Assembly (NCBI GenBank): GCA_015146655.1
Contig: VKHL01000176.1
Location: 2,242 to 55,503 of the forward strand
Length of the DNA stretch: 53,262 bases
Source: Ochromonas danica
Lineage: Eukaryota; Sar; Chrysophyceae; Chromulinales; Chromulinaceae
Direction of reading: 5' to 3'
The notes beneath the pieces are model-generated. The model searched no databases, was not told the origin of the DNA, and worked only from the letters and a program-made list of their open reading frames with translations. Shown here piece by piece: positions 2,623 to 29,854 of the stretch. A program made the translations under genes and the position numbers. How positions within the stretch are numbered: the stretch's first letter is position 1; every line of letters starts with the position of its first letter.

Positions 2623-2664
2623 TACTATAACTATAACTATAACTATAACTATAACTATAACTAT
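2623..2664. repeat. ACTATA microsatellite, length differs between array copies
   Basis: About seven tandem ACTATA units occur here, against about five at 6215-6244 in the next array copy. This is the only length difference seen between copies 1 and 2, and it explains their 12-bp period difference. Confidence 0.9.
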
Positions 2665-3006
2665 GGATGCCAACAACGGCTTCATTCACACTATTATCTA
2701 TCCAACTAACTATCAAGGAATCGCATATCACAACAGATCTAATTCAAGAATTGCACAGAAGAGAACTCGAAACAAGCTTGGCTTTGCATGAGGAACTCCC
2801 AAATAGTGATCAAAGGAAAGGGAAGGAAAAACAGGTACTAGGCAACTATGACAACAGTGTCCATGGACATTTGGTCAAAACAGATAAACATCTATGAATA
2901 GTAGGAACATAAAACATTCTCTCTTCTGCACCTCGTCTACACCCTCTTCGGGTTCAAAGACGACTACTGTGCTGATTCATACCAACTCCAGTTGGAATCA
3001 CCCACC

Positions 3007-4462
3007 CTATGCACGTTTCCAATACGGCATTGGGTGTTGGTAGGAGTGAGCTCCAGCTTGGCCATAGTAAGGGTTCATTGGTGCCTGATAAGGCTGATAA
3101 GGCTGATAAGACTGATATCCAACTTGTTGCTGTTGTTGAGCTTCCCACGACGGATGATAATTCACTGGATAAGACACAGGAGGAGAGGGTGCATGAGGCC
3201 CATAGACCATCCTATCATCTCTGCGATAGTAGTTGGGCAGCCAAGGTGGCAGAACCGATGGTGCACCACCATAGTACATATCACCACCATAGGGTGGAGG
3301 CTGCTGGACAAAGTTACTAGCCATTCCATGACTAGCTGTGAACGCAGGCGGAGCTGGCGGAGCGGTTGGTGGTAGTACGGCCCTGGTCATTGTTGTTGTT
3401 GCCTTCGCTGCAGAGGCCTTTCCATCATTGTCTGTGCCATAGCTCGACTCTAAGGACACAACATGGATTTCAGGAGAAATGATAGTAGGATGAGGATGAA
3501 ACGAGGAATTACCATGATGATCCGTGTTAGTAACCGCATTATTCCCCATAGGTTGCACTGTTTCCTGACTGGCGGCAGCCAAACCTCTCCCATCGAAGTT
3601 GTCCAGCTCTGTAGACAGACTGGAGGATCTCGGGAGATCATTTCGCGGTTCAGTCGAAGCAGAAGCGTTAATCTTTTCTTCGGTACGCTCTGACAAAGAA
3701 CAGTCGAACTTTATGTTATCCAGTGTAATCCCTCGCAGATTTCTGACTGCACTCTGGGTTTGAGCCAAGTCATTAAAGCGAAGGAAGCCATAGCCGGATT
3801 GGCTGCCATCACTCTGTTCACATCATCGCCATCACCATCATGGAAAGGCAAACCAAACTAACCATGAGCAAATAACTCTCCAAAACAATATCCAAAGTAT
3901 AGGAACTTACCTCCACTTGATAGCCTTTCATTAACACTTCAATAACATCCAGATGGTAATGATCGCGAAGCTTTGTCATCAAATAGTCTTCATTTACTTC
4001 GATATCGCGCCTAAGCTATAAAGCAGACAATTGGGATCAATGGTAGCCTTTCATATCCGATCATATTAAACACACATCATCACTCTTAGCTATGGCAAGT
4101 CTATCAACAGAAGAGAGAGAGATATACAACACAATAACACACAACAACACTCTCTCCACTTCCCATCCCATGAAAGAGAACAGTTACGAGAGACTTTATT
4201 TCGCACAGCTTGAACTAAAGACTTCAGTCATATCAATGCACTGCTCACTTACCCTGCGAGTCACAAAGCTGAAGTGGGCCGAATAGCCTTCGGGAATAGG
4301 TTGCTTTCGCTCTTTGCGACTGGTGTGATTGACATGTCTGTCAAAGTATCCCATTAGTGACTGAGAGCAAACCATGCAAGCAAGTTGGTGTTATTACCTC
4401 TTATTAACTGAGCGGGCTTCAGAAGAACCTTTTCTTGTCTTTCTATTGTCGTTGGAGGACAT
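3007..4462 (-). CDS. RNA-binding protein with one RRM and a Tyr/Pro/Gln-rich tail, array copy
   Basis: Exons on the minus strand are 4398-4462, 4253-4337, 3911-4015 and 3007-3813, giving 353 residues. Introns are 60, 237 and 97 bp with GT-AG ends. Residues about 37-130 form an RRM. Its RNP1 motif is SGYGFLRF (residues 91-98), followed by a conserved helix and a final FDCSLSE strand. The layout recalls RRMs of the RBP45/47 and TRSPAP1 group, in which a short linker precedes a GYGFVRF motif. The first 40 residues are basic. The tail is low-complexity, rich in Gln, Pro, Tyr and Gly, with repeated YQPYQ-type units, as in proteins that form RNP assemblies. The role is inferred to be mRNA or RNP binding; the RNA target is unknown. 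Confidence 0.85.
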
Positions 4463-6586
4463 TCTGTCTCGATTCTGATGATCAGTGAATTGTAATGGTC
4501 AATGATTGATAATGATGTCGACAGACAGTCAATCCGATCCTATCAATTAGTTGTGTCATCGAAGTCCTGGCAACGAGAGCATCTCCCAGCGGGAATCAAG
4601 AGAGGATTGGGCAGCCCAACCCGCTCTTGTTCACTGGCTGTGGTTGATGGCCCGGAACCGGGTGCTCGGTTAACTTGTCAACTTCTTGTCGTCTTCTTCA
4701 CTCCAGCAGCAGAGAGCATCGAGTCTCTCTATACATACCACATGACATCCTCTTCCATCTCCACTTTCCCTTTCCTTTGCCTTCACTGTTGCTTCTTCTA
4801 TTCTCTCTTTACATTCTGAAGCAGAGAAGAAAGAAAGCAGACATGATGCAATCCGATAGATGATGTCACCTGCTGCTCTTGATGGATGGGTAGTGCGGGA
4901 CGACAGGCACAGTTCATCTCATTGTGTAATGCTCGCAGTGGAGACTGTGATTCCGTGTCACGTAGCACATGATATCTCATCACAGGTGGTTAACAACCAA
5001 CCGACTCGGGATTGCATGTGAACTGTGTCTGCTCTATTATCAATCAGAAGAGATGGAGAGCAAGAAGTACCCCTGGAGCTGCAGTAAGAGAACAAGTTCT
5101 TCATGTGGGAAAGAGACGATCCTCGCGACTTCAGCGGTATGAAGAAGACGTGGAGAATCATCACGATGCGGTCAACAAGAGTTGTAGTCTCCCATTGTCT
5201 ACTCCTCCTCGTGTTCCCTCTGCGAGTAGTGAGAAGACGAAGAAGTCCTCAGTGGGCGGAAATTCGCTGACCGCGCTGTGGTGGCTGCTGCTGGCTCTGC
5301 TGGCCATTTGAACCCTTTCGCATCTTTCGCTACCTCAGCCTCAACCTCAATCCCAAACATTTCTCAGACAACAGCAGCAGCAGATCATCTTTGCCTCGAG
5401 ATTGGTTTAGACCTAGTGGACTTGCACATTCAATGTAAAGACTTAAAGTTCTCCGCCTACAGTACAATTTGAATCTTTCGATCATCTTCTGTAGCACTCC
5501 GCCACGACACTAAGATAAGATCCAATAAACCATACCAAAGAGAAGTGGTAGAACTTGTCTTCATTCACAATTCACTGGGAATTATTTTGTGTGGAGAGAG
5601 GAAAGAAGAACGATCATTCTTCCTTCACTTATTCAGACAAACAGAAGTGCAAAACAATAGAACATTTTGAAATATGAATCATTGATTGATCAAGTGGTTT
5701 AACATATTATTACACAATAGAACCCTCACATTGCAAAATAGACCAATCGATCAGTGCAGTTTGAGTCAGCTTGTTGATCAAGATTTCAAACGTGGTAATG
5801 ACAGAAAATTAATGCCATCACTCACGCAGATAGTCACCATATTTCACAAACAGATATCAACTACAAGTATAATATCAACTACAAGTAAAATGGAGACATA
5901 GTCAACTGCAATGATCTTTCAAATGAAGCTGCACATCCTATCAGCACCATGCATTCATCATGCCCAGGAGAGCAGCAGCAAAGCAAAGCAGTAGAGACCA
6001 GCACATAAGAAGACCATCCCAGCCCGTTAATTGCCTTCACATCAACAAGGCCATAGAGCAAAACTATCCTAACACCATTTCTAAATGGAAAATCTAACTC
6101 CACTGCATACTATTCCCAGAAGACTAGCCTGGTGCTATCCCAGATTCAACTCATGGAGATTGGCAAAACTCTTGTAGGTCATGAATGCCGCCAACAATGG
6201 GTCCACTCATGCCTTACTATAACTATAACTATAACTATAACTATGGATGCCAACAACGGCTTCATTCACACTATTATCTATCCAACTAACTATCAAGGAA
6301 TCGCATATCACAACAGATCTAATTCAAGAATTGCACAGAAGAGAACTCGAAACAAGCTTGGCTTTGCATGAGGAACTCCCAAATAGTGATCAAAGGAAAG
6401 GGAAGGAAAAACAGGTACTAGGCAACTATGACAACAGTGTCCATGGACATTTGGTCAAAACAGATAAACATCTATGAATAGTAGGAACATAAAACATTCT
6501 CTCTTCTGCACCTCGTCTACACCCTCTTCGGGTTCAAAGACGACTACTGTGCTGATTCATACCAACTCCAGTTGGAATCACCCACC

Positions 6587-8042
6587 CTATGCACGTTTCC
6601 AATACGGCATTGGGTGTTGGTAGGAGTGAGCTCCAGCTTGGCCATAGTAAGGGTTCATTGGTGCCTGATAAGGCTGATAAGGCTGATAAGACTGATATCC
6701 AACTTGTTGCTGTTGTTGAGCTTCCCACGACGGATGATAATTCACTGGATAAGACACAGGAGGAGAGGGTGCATGAGGCCCATAGACCATCCTATCATCT
6801 CTGCGATAGTAGTTGGGCAGCCAAGGTGGCAGAACCGATGGTGCACCACCATAGTACATATCACCACCATAGGGTGGAGGCTGCTGGACAAAGTTACTAG
6901 CCATTCCATGACTAGCTGTGAACGCAGGCGGAGCTGGCGGAGCGGTTGGTGGTAGTACGGCCCTGGTCATTGTTGTTGTTGCCTTCGCTGCAGAGGCCTT
7001 TCCATCATTGTCTGTGCCATAGCTCGACTCTAAGGACACAACATGGATTTCAGGAGAAATGATAGTAGGATGAGGATGAAACGAGGAATTACCATGATGA
7101 TCCGTGTTAGTAACCGCATTATTCCCCATAGGTTGCACTGTTTCCTGACTGGCGGCAGCCAAACCTCTCCCATCGAAGTTGTCCAGCTCTGTAGACAGAC
7201 TGGAGGATCTCGGGAGATCATTTCGCGGTTCAGTCGAAGCAGAAGCGTTAATCTTTTCTTCGGTACGCTCTGACAAAGAACAGTCGAACTTTATGTTATC
7301 CAGTGTAATCCCTCGCAGATTTCTGACTGCACTCTGGGTTTGAGCCAAGTCATTAAAGCGAAGGAAGCCATAGCCGGATTGGCTGCCATCACTCTGTTCA
7401 CATCATCGCCATCACCATCATGGAAAGGCAAACCAAACTAACCATGAGCAAATAACTCTCCAAAACAATATCCAAAGTATAGGAACTTACCTCCACTTGA
7501 TAGCCTTTCATTAACACTTCAATAACATCCAGATGGTAATGATCGCGAAGCTTTGTCATCAAATAGTCTTCATTTACTTCGATATCGCGCCTAAGCTATA
7601 AAGCAGACAATTGGGATCAATGGTAGCCTTTCATATCCGATCATATTAAACACACATCATCACTCTTAGCTATGGCAAGTCTATCAACAGAAGAGAGAGA
7701 GATATACAACACAATAACACACAACAACACTCTCTCCACTTCCCATCCCATGAAAGAGAACAGTTACGAGAGACTTTATTTCGCACAGCTTGAACTAAAG
7801 ACTTCAGTCATATCAATGCACTGCTCACTTACCCTGCGAGTCACAAAGCTGAAGTGGGCCGAATAGCCTTCGGGAATAGGTTGCTTTCGCTCTTTGCGAC
7901 TGGTGTGATTGACATGTCTGTCAAAGTATCCCATTAGTGACTGAGAGCAAACCATGCAAGCAAGTTGGTGTTATTACCTCTTATTAACTGAGCGGGCTTC
8001 AGAAGAACCTTTTCTTGTCTTTCTATTGTCGTTGGAGGACAT
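6587..8042 (-). CDS. RNA-binding protein with one RRM and a Tyr/Pro/Gln-rich tail, last array copy
   Basis: This is identical in structure to the copy at 3007-4462. Exons on the minus strand are 7978-8042, 7833-7917, 7491-7595 and 6587-7393, encoding 353 residues with the same RRM (RNP1 at residues 91-98) and Tyr/Pro/Gln-rich tail. I chose the ATG at 8042 because exon 1 then joins exon 2 in frame through an acceptor at 7918, after a tctcag-CTAAT branch-like region. A nearer acceptor would give a stop codon. Array homology ends only about 75 bp upstream of the start codon, so this copy has a promoter region different from the internal copies and might be expressed differently. Confidence 0.85.
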
Positions 8043-8115
8043 TCTGTCTCGATTCTGATGATCAGTGAATTGTAATGGTCAATGATTGATAATGATGTCG
8101 ACAGACAGTCAATCC

Positions 8116-16701: not shown

Positions 16702-17744
16702 CTAAGGAACAGAGGAGGTTGAGACGGAGGCAGACTTCGTGGCGGTCAGGTTAGAGACTCTGACCGCCATTGCGACCTTATCCTGGCCCTTCATCCAGTC
16801 TGTGGCAGCGGAAACAAGTGGCAAGCCTAACAAGTTGGTTAGCTGAGTATCACGCGCAGACACGTCCAACAACCCCAGACCACGCTGTCCGCACCGCCTC
16901 CAGGCCAGCGCGCCGCAGTGGCAGCGATGCGATGGAGGCGCGCAGAATGTTGTTGTTCTCGCCGAGTCCTCAACCTGCGGCTGTTGCTGCTGTTGCTTCT
17001 TGTTTGAAGAAGCTAAGTCCAAGACATAGTCACGGCGATTACAATTCTGACAGAGAAAGAAGCGCTTGACCGCTCGCATCGAGTGAATCTCGTGACCTTT
17101 CTCTTGGCAAAGCTCTGGGAAAGCGTCTCTGAGATGATCCCTGGAGAACACTGAGGAAGAGGGCTTGGAGCAAGAGACGCATACATAGGCTTTAATGAAG
17201 ATCTCCTCGGTCTGCTTGGCCATCTGCTGTGAGCGCTTCTCTTGCTGGTCCAGCTTCGCCAAGCGCTGTTGGTGCGCCGCGAACCATTCGTCCTCTGCCT
17301 CGCGAGCATGCGAAGAGCGCTTCGATAGCAGCGCATCCACTTCGTCCAGTATGGCTCTATGGTGTTAAATGATTGACAAGAGGACACGCAAAGGATGAGT
17401 GCAGGAGGAATGAAGAGAACGCGAAGGTTCTGGCTGAGGCACCTCTTCGAGGTCTCGGGAGGCTTGGCGACCGCATCGCGAGCCTGCGGGGCATTGGCAA
17501 GCAAGGCCTTCATATTGACAACATTGCCGTGAATGAAGCGCAAGTCTTCTGGAGGAGGAGAGGGGGCCGAATGGCTGGTTCGGATCGCAGGACGAGATGA
17601 TGCCAAAGAGGGCATTGGAATAGTTCGAGCCAACGCCAGAATAGCATTTCCTTGGCCCGGGACTCTCTTCGAATGAGTTGCAGAAGATGCTACAGACTGG
17701 GGATCACCGGGAGGGTTAGAGATCTCTGAGTAAACTCTCTTCAT
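16702..17744 (-). CDS. Short Mcm10-like protein with only the C-terminal zinc domain
   Basis: Two exons on the minus strand, 17443-17744 and 16702-17356, joined across an 86-bp intron (gtgcct...atag), encode 318 residues. Residues about 150-230 match the Mcm10 C-terminal zinc region: YVCVSC, a GHEIH segment, AVKRFFLCQNC, then HRCHCGALAWRRCG. The preceding region (about 102-145) is a charged helix, probably coiled coil. The first 100 residues are Pro/Ser-rich and unassigned. Mcm10 helps activate the CMG helicase at replication origins. The central OB-fold/zinc DNA-binding core of typical Mcm10 is not visible here, and the protein is less than half the usual length. Either upstream exons were missed (17745-18000 is AT-rich and does not look coding), or this is a reduced or paralogous form. 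Confidence 0.75.
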
Positions 17745-17967
17745 GAGGTGAAACTGGAAATTCAATTTTAAACCTCTGCATCTCTTCTTAAGTTATCGCT
17801 ACACTGCAGCAGTGCACAGTACAAAGCAGGCGAACAGTGTGATGAATGAATCTAATGGACAGATCTAGAGATTAAAGTGAGCTAAGCAAATCTATAAGTT
17901 ATAAAAGAGTTAAAAAGCAGACGATAAATATTCCAATAGGCACAATAAATATTCTAACTCAACAGAC

Positions 17968-17972
17968 AAAAA
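17968..17972 (-). terminator. Pol III T5 terminator of the permuted tRNA gene
   Basis: Five T residues on the minus strand lie seven bases after the 5' half of the permuted tRNA (17980-18017). This fits a transcript that ends there. Confidence 0.75.
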
Positions 17973-17979
17973 GAGTTGC

Positions 17980-18060
17980 TTAGGAGGGTTACGCCGTATC
18001 CATTGGGCCAGCAGGGCAGAAGTCAACCCTACCCGGGACTCGAACCCGGAATCTCAACCT
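17980..18060 (-). tRNA. Circularly permuted tRNA-Arg(CCU) gene
   Basis: On the minus strand the 3' half (18059 to 18025) comes before the 5' half (18017 to 17980), separated by seven bases. Read in mature order, 5' half then 3' half, they give a complete 73-nt tRNA. The acceptor stem GCCCTGC/GTAGGGT pairs 7 of 7 (two G-U). The D arm is GCC-CAATGGATAC-GGC. The anticodon stem TAACC/GGTTG pairs 5 of 5 (one G-U), with loop CTCCTAA and so anticodon CCU with U33 and A37. The variable loop is AGATT. The T arm CCGGG-TTCGAGT-CCCGG is perfect. The 5' half closely resembles ordinary eukaryotic tRNA-Arg(CCU). The join falls in the anticodon loop around 37/38. Such genes are known from Cyanidioschyzon, prasinophytes and chlorarachniophyte nucleomorphs: the precursor is spliced to a circle, then opened by RNase P and RNase Z. 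Confidence 0.88.
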
Positions 18061-18087
18061 ACCACCTGCACTCATCGTGTGACTAAA

Positions 18088-18098
18088 CCACTCAGCCA
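18088..18098 (-). promoter_or_regulatory. A-box in the leader of the permuted tRNA gene
   Basis: TGGCTGAGTGG on the minus strand matches the Pol III A-box consensus and lies in the leader, 41 bases ahead of the B-box GGTTCGAGTCC (18036-18046) in the T arm. In a permuted gene the D arm falls after the B-box, so an upstream A-box restores normal A-then-B promoter order. The second A-box-like sequence, in the real D arm (TGGCCCAATGG), lies downstream. Confidence 0.7.
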
Positions 18099-18208
18099 CA
18101 GTGACCAGATTAACTTTGCCAGTAATAGCAGCAAATATAAGATGTAATAGATTACCTGTACAATGAACAACATTTGTCAACATCTGCTGTGTGATCATAT
18201 TTTTCAGA

Positions 18209-19329
18209 ATGGCAATCTCCCCCTTTTTGCGAAATGTCTTATTTTATATCTACGGGGTTGCAGTGTTAGCGATAGGTCTTGGTATTGCTTTGAATGATCT
18301 GGGTGACAAGTACGTTCGGTCAGCTCGACGCGACGAGTTCTGCCAGCACTACTTGGTCAACCTCCGGCTGGAAAACTCCGCTCTTTGCTGTGATGAGGGC
18401 TATCACGACACCGACTGGGTCTGTTTTGCTTCGTACAATCAGGTGAATCGTCTGTTGGCCTCTCCATGGGCGTGGCTTCTGGCGATGTTGCCGATGCTTC
18501 TGACTTCTGCCCTGGACCTCTGCTGTGTGGTCCGAGCCTTTCATCGTCTGCAAAGCAGGAAGACACCTCCCTCTCTCTCCACGACTGTGGATTCTTCTGT
18601 TCCTCTGTGGCGGTTGGCACTCTCCTCTCTGCAGCTGCAGCGCTACGGACTCTACCTCGGCGTCTTCGCTTTTCGTCTGGTAACGCTTTGGCCACTCCTC
18701 TGACACACATGGAACCTTTCTCTTCATTCACTCCTTGCACTGTCTAGATCTTCTTATACATGCTTCCTGAATATCTTATGCGCTGGCTCTACCACAGTCG
18801 ATGGTTGTCTGCAGAGACCTGCTGGGCCACCCAGTGGCTGTCACCCTCCAAGTAAGACTGCAAAACTCTCCTCCTCTCTCTCTGAATCTCCTCAAAGGTC
18901 TATCTTATGATATCTGGCAGATGCACTCTGCGAATGGACTTCTCCGATCATATAGTTCTGGCACTGGTGCACTATATGCTGCCCTTCTGCTGGGAGACCG
19001 CCTTCATCTTCCACAGCCGCTCGGTGTCCTCCTCCAGCTCATTCCTCCTCTTGCCCCCCATCTCAACTCCGTCCTCCACAAATTCCTCTCCGAATAGGGA
19101 AGGAACTGCAGGAGAGAGATCCATTTTACCTTTGGTCTATTGGTTACCGGTAGTGGTGGGGTTCCTGGGCTATGTCCTGCTGCTCCGAATGATCTTCTTA
19201 ACAGCACTCTTATTTCACAATGCGCTTGAATGTATGGTGGCTGTGATACTGTCTTTGATCTCAATCTGGGTTCTCGTGCACCATCTTCGTGTCAGCCGTA
19301 TGCAACTTCCCTCATACACAGCACCGTGA
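18209..19329 (+). CDS. Multi-pass membrane protein with a Cys-rich loop, function unknown
   Basis: Three exons, 18209-18679, 18748-18851 and 18921-19329, joined by introns of 68 and 69 bp, encode 327 residues. I placed the second acceptor at 18920, not 18897, because the nearer one brings an immediate stop. Hydrophobic segments lie near residues 10-27, 82-102, 148-165, 200-220, 265-285 and 290-312. The first extra-membrane loop (about 30-75) carries Cys residues including a CC pair (EFCQHY, ALCCDEGY, WVCFASY), suggesting a disulfide-bonded luminal or extracellular domain. The overall shape (four or more helices, Cys-rich large loop) is vaguely tetraspanin-like, but I do not recognise the family. 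Confidence 0.7.
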
Positions 19330-28650: not shown

Positions 28651-29381
28651 GTCCTAGTCTAGTTAACGACGAGATCTTTCAGTGCAGAGGATGAAGTATT
28701 CAGTTTCGCTCAAACTGAAAAAGAAGACAAGAGAGAGGTGGTTAATTAACTTATCAACTAATTCAAGGATGGAAGGGAAAGATCAGCGCTTACCTTCCAA
28801 ACGAAGCTTTGGAGATGAGGACAGCGAAGACACAAAGCGATGAGGACTTCGACGATTGATTAGGTGTGAATGAAGAAGTGAAGGGAGATTGAAGTGAGCA
28901 GATTGAGAGGCGGGGTTGAGTCCCAGTCGCTACTGTGTCAGACCAAGAAGTGACTGTCGGGCCTCCTGCTCTGTGTGATGACATCAGCCACGATGACGTA
29001 CCACATCGGACACCATACCACAACAACTCTCGCATCAACAATCATCTCACACGCACATCAAACATCATGCTCATATCATATCTTATCGCATCAAAACGAG
29101 TCGGAAACTACGAGCAGGTCGAGGTTCCCTGGATGATTTGATGAAATTGCTGGAAAATAAAATTCTTGAAGAGCAAAGATCCAACACATCGACAAGTTGG
29201 GAGGTGGGCAAGTTAAAGCCATGGTCCTCCTTAAATTAACTATGGAGTCAAAAGGCTTCTCATGTTAAGGAACGGCAAGGAACTGAATAGCCAATAAAGC
29301 AAAAACTGGTCATATAGAGTATTTGGTGATAACAAGAACATGAAATAGTGTAAACAGTTGGAAAGACAAAAGTTTGGATCT
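28651..29381. other. 5' leader region of the TIR-like/TPR gene, with probable UTR intron
   Basis: On the minus strand a donor (GGAAG-gtaagc) at 28793 and an acceptor (ctttttcag) at 28715 define a likely 79-bp 5' UTR intron ahead of the ATG at 28650. The remainder up to tRNA-Gly shows no gene. Confidence 0.55.
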
Positions 29382-29451
29382 GCATCAGCCGGGAATCGAA
29401 CCCGGGGCTAAAGCTTGGGAAGCTTTCATTTTACCACTAAACTACTAATGC
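29382..29451 (-). tRNA. tRNA-Gly(CCC)
   Basis: This is a complete 70-nt cloverleaf on the minus strand. The acceptor stem GCATTAG/CTGATGC pairs 7 of 7 (one G-U). The anticodon stem AAAGC/GCTTT encloses loop TTCCCAA (anticodon CCC). The T arm is CCGGG-TTCGAAT-CCCGG. A TTTT run follows within 15 bases. There is no intron and the gene is linear, in contrast to the tRNA-Arg locus. Confidence 0.97.
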
Positions 29452-29854
29452 AAATTGGCTTGGCGGAGGACAGCCACTTGAAGATATAAATCAGAATTGA
29501 AATCTATCTTGATTTTACTGGTCTAAGGTCACGCGTCACACCGGAAAAAACAAAAAACTGCCGGGCGTGACGAAAATGTCACGCTTTTGACACCTACACA
29601 AGACTGCGACCATCTCAGTTGAAGATGGATAGAATATTGCTTCATTGACTTGAATTAACTTACAGCATAACATCAAGAATGATTTATTCGATCTGTAGAA
29701 ATGCGAGGGTGGCGCGTGCCTAGCGACTTTTGTCGTTTGTACAAGACGTTCTGCCTCATCTGTGCGAATTAGCTGAGATGCTCAAGAAGGCAAGAGGAAG
29801 AAGAAGAGAACTGAACCAATCTTCAATAGAGATAGAAGAAATGCTTTGACAAAG
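29452..29854. other. Intergenic DNA with GTCACGC-rich inverted repeats
   Basis: GCGTGAC at 29565-29571 and GTCACGC at 29578-29584 form a perfect 7-bp hairpin. A nearby GTCACGCGTCAC lies at about 29528-29539. These may be a regulatory site or the edge of the adjacent transposon remnant. No gene was seen. Confidence 0.5.

Follow-up and report, generated by a model that had tools for sequence, protein, structure and literature searches.

The window, as the whole stretch of 53,262 nucleotides analyzed here is called, contains on its minus strand (17968-18140) a tRNA-Arg(CCU) gene in which the 3′ half precedes the 5′ half, and which is best interpreted as a nuclear, type II circularly permuted gene with its junction between positions 37 and 38 of the mature tRNA. 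To this interpretation, including the maturation pathway proposed below, we assign a probability of about three in four; the likelihood that the locus is a genuine permuted tRNA-Arg(CCU) locus is very high and, judging from its sequence, there is a good likelihood that the gene would be functional. Indeed, the circular permutation at 37/38 proposed in the preliminary description remains the best reading of the locus: the re-ordered halves form a cloverleaf, no linear Arg(CCU) gene was found in the assembly, predicted Pol III signals lie on both sides of the halves, and the same assembly contains splicing endonuclease domains and RtcB.

Following the minus strand, on which all these elements lie, the locus starts with a TATA-like element, TTATATTT (18133..18140), located 42 nt upstream of an A box, TGGCTGAGTGG (18088..18098), which belongs to the leader and is outside the mature tRNA. 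The leader also includes GAGTGC (18068..18073), one strand of a junction helix that pairs with the trailer (17979-17973). The 3′ half (tRNA positions 38-73; 18025..18060), identified by a covariance model and by ARAGORN, comprises the 3′ strand of the anticodon stem, the variable loop, the T arm with the B box GGTTCGAGTCC (18036..18046), the 3′ strand of the acceptor stem and U73; it is followed by a 7-nt intervening sequence, GACTTCT (18018..18024), between position 73 and position 1, and by the 5′ half (positions 1-37; 17981..18017), identified by the same two methods, with the 5′ strand of the acceptor stem, the D arm, the anticodon CCU and A37. The region is closed by the trailer strand of the junction helix, GCAACTC (17973..17979), and by a T5 stretch, the predicted Pol III terminator (17968..17972). 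The succession of 3′ half, 7-nt spacer and 5′ half agrees with the preliminary description, as do the 41 nt from the end of the A box to the start of the B box and the position of T5 (17972-17968) at the end of the trailer. The order of the halves, the cloverleaf obtained after re-ordering and the 7-nt spacer joining 73 to 1 are the features of a type II permuted gene, and the T-stretch behind the 5′ half and the upstream TATA-like element also belong to a permuted gene; in a linear gene the 5′ half would precede the 3′ half, which is not the case here. The permuted locus is present once in the assembly.

The tRNA gene is located inside a 464-base gap (17744-18209) between two divergent open frames, one with its ATG at 17744 on the minus strand and the other, identified by eye, with its ATG at 18209 on the plus strand; further along, the frame at 16702-17364(-) matches the Mcm10 zinc motif with 28 bits. 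The window also contains a perfect direct repeat of 1,900 bases (2636-4535 and 6216-8115), whose copies are 3,580 bases apart and each include the same 271-aa frame; it represents either a recent duplication or an assembly artefact.

When the two halves are rejoined between positions 37 and 38, a cloverleaf is formed, which ARAGORN reports as tRNA-Arg(cct). The acceptor and anticodon stems had initially been described as fully paired and the D arm as formed, and this needs some qualification: the acceptor stem has 7 of 7 pairs only if two G-U pairs (1:72 and 6:67) are counted, the anticodon stem reaches 5/5 with one G-U pair (27:43), and the D arm does form, but with three of the four pairs in its stem, C13 and C22 being mismatched. 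The T arm, with five stem pairs in the ARAGORN drawing of the re-ordered halves, and the anticodon CCU, U33 and A37 are all present, as had been proposed. By inspection, U8-A14, A15-U48, G18G19, U33, A37 and TTCGA are intact in the re-ordered tRNA, and the discriminator base is U73. In the natural order, neither ARAGORN nor the Rfam tRNA model at its gathering score calls a tRNA at the permuted locus, and their only call in the window is a linear tRNA-Gly(CCC) at 29380-29452; thus, isoacceptors that appear to be missing in algae may hide more permuted genes.

The permutation was evaluated with a covariance model, R2, which was built by permuting in silico, at 37/38, ten linear tRNAs from the same assembly, with the locus itself excluded. 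R2 matched the locus over its full length with 54.9 bits (E 1.3e-15, window); the second match in the window, at 13.1 bits, overlaps the linear tRNA-Gly. Over 42 sources, comprising 152,537 bases, R2 yielded 76 matches with a runner-up at 39.0 bits, and 73 of the 75 other matches overlap linear tRNA genes. In agreement with the permutation proposed at the outset, a permutation-aware ARAGORN scan on doubled segments (148,679 bases) identified a permuted tRNA at this locus only: among its 37 rows, 31 lie where linear genes are located and show the anticodons of these genes, one is the linear tRNA-Gly and five are at the permuted locus, where four read Arg(cct) and one is misread as Cys. The R2 and ARAGORN scans cover about 0.5% of the assembly, and for the rest of it they give no information on permuted genes. 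Two observations argue the other way: the leader/trailer helix, taken by itself, is only modestly unusual, being equalled in stability by 131 of 5000 shuffles and by 244 of 5000 random pairs from the window, and the 142 nt have a folding energy that is ordinary for a sequence of such composition (z -0.17).

A linear tRNA-Arg(CCU), whose absence would, according to the preliminary description, make the permuted gene essential, was looked for in the 31.19-Mb assembly by sequence and by three patterns in which an anticodon loop with CCU is combined with motifs of the D or T arm, and none was found; genes with introns beyond the allowed gaps or with unusual loops, and unassembled DNA, would escape these patterns. 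The re-ordered 73-mer matched only its own two halves in the assembly, with no further copy of either. The first pattern retrieved the permuted locus only; the second gave 18 matches, 12 of them to Lys(CTT) genes, in which the match begins at the acceptor stem, and six to sequences that are not tRNA-like by eye; the single match of the third is not tRNA-like by eye either. Of the 1363 candidates in the search of the assembly with the Rfam tRNA model, only 63 were scored, so that this search is not an inventory. The assembly being mixed and possibly incomplete, these searches fall short of showing that a linear copy is absent and that the permuted gene would be the sole source of tRNA-Arg(CCU). 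In 11 uncurated open frames of the window, which together comprise 5,421 codons, 27 of the 281 codons for Arg are AGG, and this codon is therefore in use; Arg(UCU) genes, with G73 as discriminator, are present in the assembly and could serve AGG by wobble.

The putative A box of the leader restores the A-then-B order that is broken by the permutation. Its start is 52 nt from the start of the B box, a distance outside the range of class I linear genes (42-45, and 44 in the five tRNA-Phe genes) and near only to that of tRNA-Ser(GCU), which is 53. Scored with an A-box matrix built from 15 linear genes, it reaches 10.85, which is equalled by six of 106,314 other positions of the window; the displaced A box of the gene itself scores 8.0, the linear tRNA-Ser 7.5 and the other linear genes 9.4-17.6. 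An A box this good is expected 0.0008 times in the 15-position slot (42-56), and the frequency of a TATA-like word in its 22-nt slot is 0.030 (window); both slots were chosen after the layout had been seen, and these chance figures are optimistic. In a reference set of 39 linear tRNA genes on nuclear contigs, many of which are copies of few isoacceptors, a TATA-like word at -52 to -34 from the A box is present in 16 and absent in 23, and at least four T are found within 25 nt behind the gene in 38. Since 23 of the 39 lack such a word in the slot, the TATA-like element may be dispensable here as well. Odds somewhat better than even are given to transcription through the leader A box. A TFIIIC B-block profile had no match in the assembly, with no eukaryote among the controls of that search.

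As for the origin of the leader, GTGGCYGAGTGGTYNAG is matched exactly in the assembly at this locus only, and with one mismatch at eight places; four of these eight correspond to two tRNA-Ser(GCU) genes and to two places where ARAGORN finds no tRNA. The leader A-box stretch is identical to tRNA-Ser(GCU) at 15 of 18 positions, to the 5′ half of the gene itself at 11 of 18, and to the other twelve sequences compared at 9-12 of 18. Because of the 15/18 match, and of an A-to-B distance of 52 as compared with 53 in Ser(GCU), the leader may be the remnant of another tRNA copy, and we infer that its A box was either kept or borrowed from such a copy. Derivation of the leader from a decayed copy of the gene's own 5′ half was also considered, and it is unsupported beyond the A box: in register, 15 of 37 positions are identical (154 of 10,000 shuffles as good), and outside the A box the identity is 7 of 26 (3846 of 10,000 shuffles as good). 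When the locus is folded as RNA, the leader A-box stretch (window 18078-18100, minus strand) is also drawn as a hairpin of nine pairs.

A broader reading that combines these points is put forward tentatively, its odds being somewhat below even: the permuted gene would keep a normal TFIIIC-type promoter by means of a spare A box in the leader, itself a remnant of another tRNA gene copy and later removed by splicing; permutation would then not depend on TATA-only transcription, permuted tRNA genes could arise in any eukaryote whose Pol III promoters are ordinary, and no other gene would supply tRNA-Arg(CCU) in this stramenopile nucleus.

In the proposed pathway, a type 2 promoter, consisting of the upstream TATA, the leader A box and the B box of the 3′ half, would recruit Pol III, which would stop at T5. 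The transcript would then fold with strands from both halves closing the anticodon stem, and leader and trailer would come together in a relaxed bulge-helix-bulge joint; in this joint C32-G(-3), C34-G(-5) and C35-G(-6) would pair, with U33/U(-4) unpaired, flanked by 3-nt bulges and followed by the GAGUGC/GCAACUC helix. The tRNA splicing endonuclease would cut on the 3′ side of A37 and on the 5′ side of A38, the ends at 37 and 38 would be joined into a circle by RtcB or some other ligase, and the 7-nt spacer would be removed by RNase P and tRNase Z, with CCA added thereafter. While sequence, structure and promoter layout are observed at the locus itself, transcription, the circle and charging are expected by analogy with the precedents of Cyanidioschyzon merolae and of prasinophytes. 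By the usual positional rule for such joints, the 37/38 junction would be compatible with a relaxed bulge-helix-bulge.

The unconstrained minimum-energy structure given by RNAfold is the permuted cloverleaf with the leader/trailer helix, and the pairing probabilities in the ensemble are 0.69-0.80 for the acceptor stem, 0.57-0.63 for the anticodon stem and 0.27-0.29 for the T stem. The pairing of GAGTGC with GCAACTC, already noticed in the preliminary description, is confirmed, with five of the six pairs at 0.96-1.0 and the sixth divided between two A residues. At the 37/38 joint the outer helix and both 3-nt bulges (U36 A37 A(+1) and G(-2) U(-1) A38) are present, but the central helix, with three of four pairs, is weak in the ensemble (probabilities of 0.15-0.41), which, together with the low values of the T stem, counts against the scheme.

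The enzymes that the pathway would need are represented at the level of the assembly. A Sen-type endonuclease domain (PF01974) was found on contig C7, with 38.6 bits in the genome search and 36 in hmmscan, and on contig C21, with 27.3 and 27.4 bits, respectively, for a cut-off of 27; a search of PDB with the C7 frame retrieved tRNA-splicing endonucleases as weak matches (best E 0.0013; Sen34 E 0.67). RtcB is matched on contig C8 with 389.5 bits; the match (C8:38607-39656, residues 1-320 of 426) includes three TGA and one TAG, and these in-frame stops perhaps correspond to introns. A Trl1-type ligase domain was not found in the assembly, and no control was matched by that search either. The assembly is mixed, and both endonuclease and ligase may belong to another of its organisms.

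The window is part of contig C176 of an assembly of 31,187,593 bases in 337 contigs. Its attribution to an ochrophyte nucleus, in line with the stramenopile origin first suggested, is supported by the tree of its alanyl-tRNA synthetase (AlaRS) and by the 47% GC content of the contig. The window AlaRS falls into one group with ten proteins from databases and a EukProt entry, and this group is placed beside Chattonella, Nannochloropsis and Pinguiococcus, apart from diatoms, Triparma, oomycetes and red algae, in a tree of 35 rows chosen among the 120 matches listed and with a weak root; SH-aLRT values are 97-100 for the three smallest starred sets and 89 for the join to Chattonella. The source of the window is thus most likely an ochrophyte, and a chrysophyte would be a compatible guess. 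Plastid genes, named by eye from translations as were the mitochondrial ones, are found on contigs C193, C202, C303, C311 and C319, and mitochondrial genes on C214 and C237; at least three sets of plastid genes and at least two of mitochondrial genes are present, with overlapping tRNA clusters and genes, and therefore more than one organism, namely several ochrophytes, contributes to the assembly. The COX1 encoded on C214 matches a EukProt entry with 100% identity over 91%, and the EukProt AlaRS bearing the same style of name has only 56% identity with the window AlaRS, which suggests that C214 derives from a species other than that of the window.

The main alternative to a functional permuted gene is a dead rearranged copy, that is a tandem or rearranged, unprocessed fragment of tRNA-Arg, with the real Arg(CCU) gene unassembled or its codon read through Arg(UCU) wobble. 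The C13/C22 mismatch in the D stem, G1-U72 and U73 could mean relaxed constraint and argue in this direction, as do the presence of Arg(UCU) genes and the occurrence of the locus as a single copy in a possibly incomplete assembly. However, complementary stems and tertiary positions are kept in both halves, a terminator lies directly behind the trailer helix, the assembly yielded no linear Arg(CCU), and a dead copy has no need for a leader A box at working distance, for which the (optimistic) chance expectation is 0.0008; this alternative is hence regarded as unlikely. Far less probable is that two half-tRNA pieces of a split, trans-spliced system abut here by chance: split tRNA genes are known in archaea (PMC3218864, in excerpt), but here the acceptor and anticodon stems are each built from complementary strands of the two halves, which lie within one short unit, and the assembly yielded no additional copy of either half.

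Equally improbable is a Y RNA, namely an RNA bound by Ro60, with a body that resembles a circularly permuted tRNA. YrlA of bacteria has a tRNA-like domain (PMC11472068, PMC7790460, both in excerpt), and in one bacterial Y RNA the body can be superposed on tRNA in circularly permuted order (PMC11472068); in the present locus leader and trailer pair, and the Rfam YrlA family, RF02553, aligns to it with 21.0 bits (E 0.07). This score has to be compared with a gathering score of 69, the alignment involves mainly the tRNA-like body and leaves the Y stem largely mismatched, and no TROVE/Ro60 domain was found in the assembly with E up to 10, in a search whose control matched one of 14 genomes (Deinobacterium). 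Moreover, a Y RNA would presumably not need a full anticodon arm with CCU, U33 and A37 and a 37/38 junction. With a YrlA score below the curated one and no Ro60, the Y RNA explanation is disfavored, and the reading as a permuted tRNA gene is retained.

Relatives of the locus were also searched for by pattern in viral contigs (three contigs), which gave phage tRNA clusters and Y RNA-like units, and these are not considered relatives. In one of the three contigs, the permuted model scores 61.2 and 49.3 bits where ARAGORN finds no linear tRNA, and the ends of these units are conserved. IMG/VR loci among L091 and L094-L141 contain units of the form GAGC-NNN-U-RCU-UAUUUC ... AGY-(reverse complement of GCNNN), with permuted tRNAs, whole tRNAs or short sequence as inserts (L091:1675-1754(-), L091:4053-4128(-), L109:7871-7946, L118:3033-3109, L105:3575-3650 and L111:2532-2610(-), among others); in several of them an anticodon arm is present by eye. 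An exactly matching trailer occurs within 260 nt in 64 of the 69 distinct units, compared with a mean of 2.94 when the key of another unit is used, although some contigs are near copies and the units are not independent. Among six loci tested, the permuted matches L111:2538-2607 and L108:3-121 align to Rfam YrlA with 33.8 and 32.7 bits (gathering score 69); in view of these weak matches, the viral permuted units look like Y RNA-like RNAs. The L091 stretch had no match among 50,697 phage records.

As to the significance of a permuted tRNA-Arg(CCU) gene, the kind of gene is known, while lineage and promoter layout are new; a stramenopile nuclear case would represent a further, probably independent, origin of permuted tRNA genes and, if the gene is expressed, would extend them to another branch of life. 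That no such gene is in print for an ochrophyte, as supposed from the start, holds for the open-access literature searched, as far as the excerpts go. What appears to be new in the layout is a leader with a putative Pol III arrangement, with TATA at -42, an A box that precedes the B box by 52 nt and T5 behind. According to the excerpted review (PMC3978253), the A and B boxes of permuted genes are inverted and unsuitable for TFIIIC, an upstream AT-rich or TATA-like region may serve in their place, and TATA-dependent transcription may predominate in algae; in the same excerpt, no leader A box is described for permuted tRNA genes. How transcription takes place despite inverted internal boxes is a question put in that review, and the leader A box suggests an answer to it that can be tested.

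By 2014, permuted tRNA genes had been reported in a red alga, four prasinophytes, a chlorarachniophyte nucleomorph and a crenarchaeon, with intervening sequences of 1-74 bp (PMC3978253, in excerpt, also for what follows unless otherwise indicated); those of the Amorphochlora nucleomorph (PMC4494063, in excerpt) and of Auxenochlorella (PMC12633428, in excerpt) were added later. Auxenochlorella, a green alga unlike the probable ochrophyte studied here, has nuclear permuted genes as well, which were found after tRNAscan-SE had returned an incomplete set (PMC12633428); the excerpt gives no promoter layout for them. C. merolae resembles the present case in having nuclear permuted genes with an upstream TATA-like element and a downstream T-stretch, among which is a permuted Arg(CCT); the latter is, however, of type IV (59/60), has an intervening sequence of 23 bp and is interrupted by an intron at 14/15, and no leader A box is described for this alga. 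The closest similarity is with the type II genes of prasinophytes (Ostreococcus, Micromonas) and of the Bigelowiella natans nucleomorph, in which the 3′ half also comes first: all those listed but one have the junction at 37/38, as here, and all but one lack an intron; their joint is of the hBH type, which the present one may resemble in its bulges and outer helix; their intervening sequences are 5-64 bp long, as compared with 7 here. The listed type II isoacceptors are Ser, Leu, Cys, Asn, iMet and Arg(TCT), and their hosts belong to the green lineage, whereas the gene described here is an Arg(CCT) of a probable ochrophyte; and, unlike type II genes with their inverted boxes, it has in its leader a putative second A box that re-establishes the A-then-B order.
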